From IMG/VR virus record IMGVR_UViG_3300007363_000026, positions 1 through 54,512 of that record: DNA of 54,512 nt, one strand, 5' to 3'. This DNA is from a virus. Made by a program: the position numbers and the translations under genes. Position 1 is the stretch's first letter. The number at the start of each line of letters is the position of its first letter. The notes beneath the pieces are model-generated. The model saw only the letters and a list, made by a program, of their open reading frames with translations, was not told the DNA's origin and did no database searches. This document shows, piece by piece, positions 21,749 to 23,849 of this stretch.

Positions 21749-22503
21749 TTACGCGACGATGACGCCGTGACGAGCCGCATTGCTGATGGTCAGGTTGCCC
21801 ATCCAATACAGCGGCGTAACAGTCGCATCCTGGTTGACGGCGACCTTGTCTTTCAACACCACGAAGTTCCGCGATTTCGCTGGACGGAAATGCAGATACT
21901 TCGAATTAATCATATACATACGATTGGTGTTGCAGTTCGGGTCATAGAAGACCGTCGCGCCCTTGTACTTGTAGCCACGGAAACCACCGACTGCCTTTTC
22001 GTTGGCATCCATGAAGCGCTGCTGGGCTTGCAGGCTTTCCTCGAAGTAGGTGAAATAGTTTTCACCGGCTACCACGAGGTCAACGTGTTCCGTTCCGCGT
22101 TCTGCACGGAGATAGATCACGTTCATTGCATGCTGGATCGTCGTCGACGATGCCGTCACGCTGTTGTCGCTGAAGTCGTAATACTGGTTGCGCCACCAAG
22201 TATTGCTGCTGCGATCGATGCCGCCAACCGTGCCAGAGGTCGGAAGATCGGCAAGAAGGTGCTGCAGACCACCGATCGCCTTACCGCCCTGCTCCGTGTT
22301 GGAGTAGAACAGAGAAGCCGAAATGTTGTTCTGCAGAGTGGCCTCTGCGACCTCGATGCGGGCTTTGATGAGGTTGTGCATGGCCTCCGCACCGGAGTTC
22401 TGCACTTCCTCAAGGCCACTCATCGTGACGTTGCAGTTGGCCTGCTTCCAATCGAAGTTTGCCGTCGTCAGAACGTCGGAAGCTTCGACACTGAGGTATT
22501 CAT
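21749..22503 (-). CDS. major capsid protein, exon 2
   Basis: This encodes the large C-terminal part of the capsid protein. In-frame coding runs upstream of the first ATG (22423) to about 22503 (EYLSVEASDVLTTANFDWKQ), which is typical of this HK97-like capsid family, and continues through MSGLEEVQNSGAEAMHNL, TVGGIDRSSNTWWRNQYYDF and the C-terminal LYWMGNLTISN. Joined to exon 1 the protein has about 314-317 residues. The exon starts directly after the last G of the group I intron (22504), giving a TAT codon if exon 1 ends with T at codon position 1. Confidence 0.8.
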
Positions 22504-22709
22504 CGATGTGTTATCGCTAGCCTGTTTATGACTAGCTTCTGCATGTCGCCATGCAGTCCAGACTATATCATCGCTTTCGCGTCGGGCATTCGTGGGCGGG
22601 TTATTCTTTCGTCACCGCCTAGTCGTTACACCTTCCACAACCCTGAAAATCCAGAGGATTTCTACGTTTGTGGCTTGGCTCGGTATTGGCTCAGAAACCC
22701 CTCATTTGG

Positions 22710-22715
22710 TATAGT
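22710..22715 (+). promoter_or_regulatory. possible promoter for the antisense HNH gene inside the intron core
   Basis: TATAGT at 22710-22715 with TTGGCT 18 bp upstream (22686-22691) forms a reasonable sigma70-type pair about 50 nt before the ATG at 22765. It overlaps the DNA encoding P3-P5 of the ribozyme, so antisense transcription from here would be complementary to the intron RNA. Confidence 0.35.
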
Positions 22716-22764
22716 GAGCGTTCCACCGAATTAACCCGATTTGCTGTTGTTACTCAGGATCGCC

Positions 22765-23520
22765 ATGGCCAAGAGAAAGCTCAAAGGTCAGTACTTCGTA
22801 TGTCAGTACTGCTCTGAAACCTTCTATCGAAGACCATCCCATGTGCGCCGCGGGATCACGAAGACCTGCGGCAAGCGCCAATGCATTAGCGCATCGGCCA
22901 TGGGGGAGAAGAACCCGTTTTGGGGAAAGAACCATTCATCCGAAGTCAAGGAGCACATCAAGAAGATGCGTCGTTCTCGTCCGCCTCGCCCGCCTGGAGC
23001 CGCCAAGTATGGCCCGCTCAAGGGCACTTACGTTGCCAGCAAGGAAGCCAGAGAAAAGATCTCAGCGGCTGTCAAAGCTGACTGGGCAAACAACAGAGAC
23101 AAGAGACTTGCGGCTGTCGCCAAGGGCACGGAAGTTAAGCTCTCAAAGTTCTTCAACAAAGAGCCGCGCCATCGTGTCCGCTTCACTCCAATGCAACATA
23201 AGGAGTGGGGCGAAAAATCTTGCAAGTGGTGTGATGCCACCGAAGACTTGGTTCTTGACCACATCTTCCCGGTAATGGCTGGCGGCACGAACCGAAGGGC
23301 GAATGCCCAAACGCTGTGCCGCAAGTGTAACCTTTGGAAGATGCGCTTTATAGATCGTCCTCTCGTGTTAGCGATGCTGGATAACAAAGGGGCTGATCAC
23401 AACCCGGAGTACCAAGAGCAAGCTGTTACTTTCGCGGACTCCACCGCTACTGACCATCAACCGGATGGCGGGGAAACCTCTTCGGGTCTCCCTCTCTGGC
23501 TTCACAAGAAAGCGTCATAA
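22765..23520 (+). CDS. HNH homing endonuclease encoded antisense in the intron (251 aa)
   Basis: It starts with an N-terminal zinc-knuckle region (CQYC near residue 12 and CGKRQC near 37). NUMOD3-like repeats follow (GEKNPFWGKNHSSEVKEHI; ASKEAREKISAAVKADW), then a C-terminal HNH nuclease with CKWCDATEDLVLDHIFP, GGTNRRANAQTLC and CRKCNLWK. This is a typical intron-mobility endonuclease that cleaves intronless capsid genes. ATG 22765 follows CAGGA. Unusually, the gene runs opposite to the intron and the capsid gene. Confidence 0.9.
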   Translation: MAKRKLKGQYFVCQYCSETFYRRPSHVRRGITKTCGKRQCISASAMGEKNPFWGKNHSSEVKEHIKKMRRSRPPRPPGAAKYGPLKGTYVASKEAREKISAAVKADWANNRDKRLAAVAKGTEVKLSKFFNKEPRHRVRFTPMQHKEWGEKSCKWCDATEDLVLDHIFPVMAGGTNRRANAQTLCRKCNLWKMRFIDRPLVLAMLDNKGADHNPEYQEQAVTFADSTATDHQPDGGETSSGLPLWLHKKAS

Positions 23521-23650
23521 CCAGAGAGCAGACTGTCGCATCCCTTTCGGGTCACCTCGCTCAGTCGTTCACGGCGGGCTGGGTGGCCCTTCCGCCTTGT
23601 CACCCTCGCCAGGGCTTCCAAGTCAATCAGAGGTGATTTATCCACGTCCT

Positions 23651-23849
23651 AAAGATTTAACGTGCCATTTTCTGCGTACTTGAGGTTCTCCAACAGCTTC
23701 ACGCCACCCGTCGCCGGATCGGTGTTGCCGTTGTTCTTGAGGTAAAGCAGAAGAACGTTGTTCGTGAGAACGTTGTCCGCCAGCTTTGACCGGTAGTTGT
23801 CGATGGTCGTAGTCAGGATTTCGGAATAACTGGTGTTCGGCGCGGCCAT
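23651..23849 (-). CDS. major capsid protein, exon 1
   Basis: N-terminal 66 codons (MAAPNTSYSEILTTTIDNYR ... LADNVLTNNVLLLYLKNNG ... LLENLKYAENGT), matching the N-terminus of an HK97-like major capsid family. The frame hits TAG at 23651-23649 inside the intron. An exon end at T23651 or T23660 keeps the frame with exon 2 (..YEYLSV). The best P1 pairing instead suggests T23659, which would not keep the frame. Confidence 0.8.

Follow-up and report, generated by a model that had tools for sequence, protein, structure and literature searches.

An interrupted capsid gene

How can a phage express a major capsid gene whose coding sequence is broken, and why does an HNH endonuclease gene lie on the opposite strand within the break? 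We examined this question in a complete virus record of 54512 bases, hereafter called the window. Its capsid gene lies on the - strand, with coding broken between 23658 and 22504. This agrees with a preliminary description of the locus, in which coding was seen to stop near 23651 and to resume near 22503, and in which the whole insert was taken as one group I intron carrying the HNH gene in its 5' part. According to our comparative analysis, it is well supported that the gene is interrupted by two group I introns, separated by an exon of 17 nt (Table 1).

Table 1. Features of the capsid locus, with positions in the window
Feature	Position	Strand	Remarks
Capsid exon 1	23659..23849	-	191 nt; ends ..GGCACGTT; phrog_9953 positions 4-65
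Intron 1	23419..23658	-	group I intron of 240 nt without an ORF; L003 carries an intron at this site, L001 and L002 do not
Intron 1 guide sequence GACGUG	23643..23648	-	pairs with exon 1 end CACGUU (23664-23659); read from the sequence
Intron 1 catalytic core P3-P8	23528..23642	-	
Exon 2 (micro-exon)	23402..23418	-	17 nt, CTCTTGGTACTCCGGGT; codes for conserved (F)SWYSG(Y)
Intron 2	22504..23401	-	898-nt group I intron; antisense HNH gene between P1 and P3
Intron 2 guide sequence GCCC	23390..23393	-	pairs with GGGU ending exon 2 (23405-23402); read from the sequence
RF00028 match (intron 2 core, T4 td-like P7-P9)	22539..22794	-	
Capsid exon 3 with stop codon	21749..22503	-	
Sigma-70-type promoter match TTGGCT-18-TATAGT	22686..22715	+	-35 in P5-side core, -10 in L5 of intron 2
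NUMOD3-HNH endonuclease gene	22765..23520	+	251 aa; antisense to capsid gene and introns
NUMOD3 motif	22885..22956	+	residues 41-64
HNH nuclease domain	23221..23364	+	residues 153-200; zinc cysteines and DH..N..CN intact
Lineage-specific HNH tail	23398..23520	+	last 40 codons and stop

Close capsid homologues were found on three viral contigs (L001, L002 and L003), and a search of species genomes with the capsid protein gave no match. The capsid genes of L001 and L002 are uninterrupted, and alignment with these intronless homologues, a check proposed in the preliminary description, showed both insert sites to be empty there. The capsid gene of L003 contains a single intron, at the site where the window insert starts. 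Its similarity to the insert is confined to the first 240 nt, and it ends just before the WYSG codons, which in the window are provided by the micro-exon that immediately follows the first element. With intron 1 present by itself in L003, we read the insert as two introns and not one.

In silico splicing of both introns yields an intact capsid protein of 320 aa, which matches the 'major head protein' phrog_9953 over positions 4-328/329 (4.2e-87), compared with 2.9e-10 and 6.4e-59 for the unspliced capsid fragments. The spliced protein aligns with those of L001-L003 through both junctions without a gap. Skipping of exon 2, on the other hand, would shift the frame and lead to an immediate stop (ACG TTA TGA). 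The occurrence of both introns only 17 nt apart is known only from the window.

A single long group I intron whose 5' part holds the antisense HNH gene would account for the broken coding between 23658 and 22504 and for the single core seen by Rfam. This reading is very improbable, however: in L003 the 5' element occurs by itself and its 3' junction falls at the same codon, the conserved WYSG is encoded between the two elements, and a separate covarying P3-P8 core is present in the 5' element. A group I intron in the capsid gene thus stands, but the 5' part of the insert had been wrongly assigned to it and belongs to a different group I intron that the Rfam model does not detect.

Even less credit is given to a nested arrangement, either a twintron or a twin-ribozyme of the GIR1/GIR2 type, in which the 5' ribozyme would cap the endonuclease mRNA. 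The two ribozyme cores with an endonuclease gene between them follow the twin-ribozyme order, but capsid codons lie between the two elements, and in L003, as in the P22-like coat gene of L151, intron 1 stands between exons without a second element. Moreover, the strand processed by the ribozymes is not that of the HNH gene, which makes a capping role impossible; in GIR1 systems the capping ribozyme is situated directly upstream of a sense endonuclease gene, whereas in the window the gene lies on the other strand. That the insert inactivated the capsid gene, with the contig being a dead relic or a chimeric assembly, as stop codons within the introns might suggest and as the preliminary description had allowed for, can practically be set aside in silico, given that both junctions restore the conserved frame exactly and at full length, that each element is also found on independent contigs and that the HNH frame is intact and selected.

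Intron 1 and its class

The Rfam model RF00028 did not match intron 1 in the window or in L003. Because the covariation and site occupancy of intron 1 are strong, we read this as a gap in the generic model, and recognition by that model as not class-defining. The P1 helix of intron 1 shows a U-G pair at the 5' splice site, with the same pairing in L003, and the intron ends in a terminal G (..GCTTG, followed by CTCTTGG).

A relative of intron 1 is located in the P22-like coat gene of MW202674.1 (L151). A search pattern built from the window, L003 and L151 members found the intron 1-type core in at least 120 viral contig stretches, representing at least 114 distinct sequences (L152-L270, L003:3644-3960, L151:2490-2707 and 23658-23419 of the window). 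Their consensus reads CTCTGATTGACTTGGA..GACAGGGCG..GTGAACGACTA..GCGATAGTC, and the class represents a widespread type of small phage group I introns.

Covariation was assessed on 60 aligned intron 1-type sequences, including that of the window, with a hand-built P3-P4-P5-P6-P7-P8 structure. In this alignment 97.6% of the cells were paired. Changes on both sides were seen in 15 of the 28 pairs, with 253 such cells compared with 73 in shuffles; by helix, the pairs with both-side changes included four in P3, four in P5, one in P7 and four in P8. When the pairing partners were slid by one to three columns, pairing amounted to 38-52%. Intron 1 hence possesses a P3-P8 core, including the P3/P7 pseudoknot, with covariation support, as is characteristic of group I introns. 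The R1 covariance model scored intron 1 of the window at 103.5 bits, with the window sequence being among the model's own inputs. A covariance model made from the 60-sequence alignment additionally matched the td-like intron loci L129, L133, L042 and L143, on the same strand as the td-like intron, and close proximity of two group I intron classes may be recurrent.

Pairs of intron 1-type cores were observed as well. L163, L219 and L220 each contain two of them on the same strand within 0.4-1.5 kb and are probably multi-intron genes. In L151 (2185-3700, corresponding to MW202674.1 16569-18084), two CDSs are annotated as 'P22 coat protein', separated by a stretch with a small hypothetical ORF; as this stretch is a group I intron of the intron 1 type, the coat gene is probably one spliced gene.

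Intron 2, a td-like ribozyme

The sole Rfam match in the whole window is RF00028 at 22794-22539 on the - strand (56.9 bits, E 7.1e-12, gathering score 50); Rfam hits to snoZ6 and sR14 were put down to chance. It lies within intron 2, where the P, Q, R, S and P9 elements occur in the order given in the preliminary description. The P1/P2 portion of the match is regarded as spurious because the true P1 is found at 23405-23390. There, exon 2 ends in a U that is paired with the guide G, the splice-site pairing (GGGU/GCCC) being only 4 bp long, and the intron ends in G (..CATCG, followed by ATGAA). The P3-P8 core with its P, Q, R and S elements and the restoration of the capsid frame upon removal both identify intron 2 as a group I intron. 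It shares the P7-P9 signature of T4 td-type (subgroup IA2) introns, in which endonuclease genes are common.

The antisense HNH gene and its relatives

The protein encoded opposite to intron 2 matches PF14279 (2.9e-10), PF01844 (1.6e-7) and NUMOD3 PF07460 (2.2e-7), all above the Pfam cut-offs, and thereby combines the HNH catalytic domain with the DNA-binding NUMOD motif of HNH homing endonucleases. The 251-aa ORF on the + strand was correctly described as antisense and as lying in the 5' part of the insert, but it is not confined to one intron. While its domains lie within intron 2, between P1 and P3, its tail is antisense to the end of intron 2, to the whole micro-exon and to 102 nt of intron 1. 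The same NUMOD and HNH architecture is found in I-HmuI and I-BasI inside phage introns. The genes of these enzymes have the sense orientation within DNA polymerase introns, whereas the gene in the window is antisense; a comparison of the window protein with solved structures gave no I-HmuI or I-BasI match above the cut-off.

Relatives of the gene were obtained by a close-relative search (L005-L007) and a profile search (L271, L272, L273 and L277), and in all of them the HNH gene is antisense to a capsid gene. An RF00028 core lies opposite the gene in all relatives but L273, whose core is still recognizable by sequence. Including the window, four lineages carry the same antisense HNH gene at the same or an equivalent capsid site. 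The HNH proteins of the three diverged lineages besides the window are 48-51% identical, and across all four lineages the identity is 48-63%. As read from the sequence, the 3' exons open with a phase-1 Tyr codon (YEY in the window, YNI in L006 and L271), and the 5' exons end in RYSG in L271 and L273 and in WYSG in the window. L006 is without the three residues YSG, and we therefore call its site equivalent rather than strictly identical; the exon alignment around it is ambiguous by three codons. That diverged phages carry the gene at this capsid site or an equivalent one agrees with homing.

The coding sequence is under purifying selection, judging from the codons of the HNH gene: differences among the lineages fall mostly at third positions (0.63-0.67, compared with 0.26-0.44 at first and 0.25-0.36 at second positions), and between L005 and L006 dN is 0.008 and dS 0.038. 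The C-terminal end is not conserved. In the window and in L271 the frame reads through the splice site, in the window continuing across the micro-exon into intron 1, and in L006 and L273 it stops before or in P1. The start of the L006 gene has GGAGG just upstream.

One of the contigs with an L006-type antisense HNH capsid intron, L277, was binned as Candidatus Omnitrophota, a possible host lead for that lineage.

A promoter match within the ribozyme

When the window region was scanned blindly for promoters, one match only was obtained, on the HNH strand, and the same scan of the L006 region likewise gave one match only, at the equivalent place; the chance expectation is about 0.7-1.1 matches per region. 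The match in the window agrees with the sigma-70-type consensus at 9 of 12 positions, a consensus that may not be that of the host's sigma factor. Its -35 box is the complement of GNCAATACC, the conserved core next to P5 that is common to all related introns. The ribozyme core supplies the TTG and the C of this box, and three of the four required -35 matches come free. The -10 box is located in L5, beside a stem that has changed on both sides between the lineages (GCTCA/TGAGC, TCTCC/GGAGA and ACTTC/GAAGT).

In L271 (TTGTCT-17-TATAGT) and L273 (TTGACT-16-TACAGT) a match occupies the same position, and the promoter match is accordingly conserved at one position in all four HNH lineages. Shuffling of L5 gave p-values of 0.011, 0.032, 0.012 and 0.016 for the four lineages (Fisher 5.7e-5), which are not independent since the lineages share ancestry; the test was devised once the first two cases had been seen, and L271 and L273 were found after the idea had formed. 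An L5 promoter match was absent from all 17 related introns that share the P5 surroundings and lack this HNH gene, among them L139, which carries an unrelated antisense HNH gene. Two unrelated antisense introns, L032 and L055, have a promoter match on the gene's strand near the gene start.

On balance, we lean towards the view that the ribozyme core doubles as a promoter on the complementary strand, where only L5 would have had to evolve a -10 box, making the antisense endonuclease transcript independent of the most heavily transcribed gene of the phage. The claim of the preliminary description that transcription of the HNH gene is decoupled from the late operon gains support from this promoter-like site, found at one position in four relatives.

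The main competitor, to which we assign a smaller though appreciable chance, is that the antisense orientation is accidental, that any transcription of the gene comes from read-through or general antisense transcription, and that the promoter match is a coincidence inherited with L5. A match of 9/12 is weak and the host's sigma factor may differ; upstream of the antisense gene in L139 there is no promoter match, nor is there one in the intron region of the mycobacteriophage LittleE. Against this stand the position of the match, which was kept in four diverged lineages while the flanking L5 stem changed on both sides, its absence from the 17 related introns, its counterparts upstream of the gene in the two unrelated antisense introns, and the selection acting on the HNH gene itself.

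A regulatory role, suggested in the preliminary description, by which the antisense transcript would control capsid splicing through pairing with the intron RNA, is possible from the geometry alone: a + strand transcript starting from L5 would cover P3, P1 and the 5' splice site of intron 2, the micro-exon and the 3' part of intron 1. We nevertheless hold it to be unlikely, because the lineages do not all share the overlap beyond the 5' splice site and both RNAs would need to be made simultaneously.

Proposed mechanism and implications

Taken as a whole, we consider it quite probable that two separately splicing introns surround the 17-nt exon, that the td-like intron 2 expresses its antisense HNH gene from its own L5 promoter and is mobile by homing, and that intron 1 is co-converted. 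The HNH gene would most likely be transcribed from the sigma-70-type promoter in L5, a step supported by sequence. With the -35 box in the ribozyme core and the -10 box in L5, production of the enzyme would not depend on the strong late transcript that runs rightward to leftward and carries the capsid gene. Judging from its domains and the conservation of the site, the nuclease presumably cuts capsid alleles without intron 2 and so drives homing. Repair would then copy intron 2, and intron 1, at a distance of 17 bp, may be carried along by co-conversion; the ORF-less intron 1 thus probably hitchhikes beside the mobile intron 2. The late capsid pre-mRNA is expected to lose both introns by self-splicing, as indicated by ribozyme structure and reading frame.

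If the L5 promoter is real, it would explain, for the whole family, an early and modest endonuclease expression apart from the late capsid mRNA, and the two strands of one DNA segment would serve as ribozyme and promoter, respectively. The arrangement would illustrate how an ORF-less intron can spread by adjoining a mobile one, and the 17-nt exon would be well suited to testing the order of splicing and the skipping of exons. Finally, the general Rfam model overlooks a large class of phage group I introns, and capsid genes containing them will be annotated as broken.

Short exons and antisense endonuclease genes in known systems

Two group I introns around a very short exon are also found in Orf142 of phage Twort, where introns 2 and 3 are separated by 23 nt, and in the 23S rRNA gene of Coxiella, with an exon of 34 nt; exon skipping is known in these cases (PMC10136302). 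The window differs from them in that its exon is shorter, at 17 nt, and lies in a capsid gene between introns of unlike classes, and in that skipping stops the frame.

The preliminary description had called the antisense layout rare. It is indeed uncommon, but its novelty was overstated, being preceded by LittleE, by myxomycete rDNA introns and by further cases in our survey. In LittleE, the bottom strand of the intron within the major capsid gene encodes an endonuclease, and Pope et al. (2013; PMC3706429) demonstrated splicing by RT-PCR and protein sequencing. The window belongs to the same kind, with an endonuclease gene on the opposite strand inside a group I-type intron of a phage major capsid gene. 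LittleE differs in having one intron and a LAGLIDADG_3 protein according to Pfam (gp14), and it was rejected as a homologue of the window HNH protein for want of similarity. In a limited paper collection, LittleE was the only report found on opposite-strand genes in phage introns or on the intron 1 class. The kind itself is therefore already known; new are the 17-nt exon and the promoter-like element that is conserved within the ribozyme.

Among eukaryotes, the myxomycete rDNA introns Didymium L2066 and S956-2 carry an endonuclease gene that is antisense to the group I ribozyme and is reported to be expressed from a promoter of its own (PMC9548176). They are unrelated in sequence to the window introns, with His-Cys box enzymes, polyadenylated mRNAs and the gene placed in P9.2.

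For an estimate of frequency, td-like introns were fetched from viral contigs by pattern and inspected for HNH, GIY-YIG or LAGLIDADG relatives. Leaving aside the two lineages used in the design of the pattern, the endonuclease gene was in sense orientation in 13 cases and antisense in three, so that the window, with its antisense gene, departs from the usual sense layout. The antisense cases are L139 and L055, in capsid genes, and L032, next to a capsid gene; the 5' exon of L032 was not found, and it is only a candidate for a clean antisense intron. Based on this survey and LittleE, antisense is a minority layout that arose several times. The idea that antisense endonuclease genes belong to capsid introns was dropped, since about half of the sense cases are also in or next to capsid genes.

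By eye, the antisense HNH genes of L139 (1128-1898) and L055 (1879-2895) lie in introns of SU10-like and N4gp56-like capsid genes, respectively. The L139 protein has no similarity to that of the window, and the L055 protein resembles the sense HNH protein of L140. The sense HNH frames of L133, L140, L141 and L148 reach toward the td-like core or pass through it, and in L133, L141 and L148 the open frame spans P4-P6.
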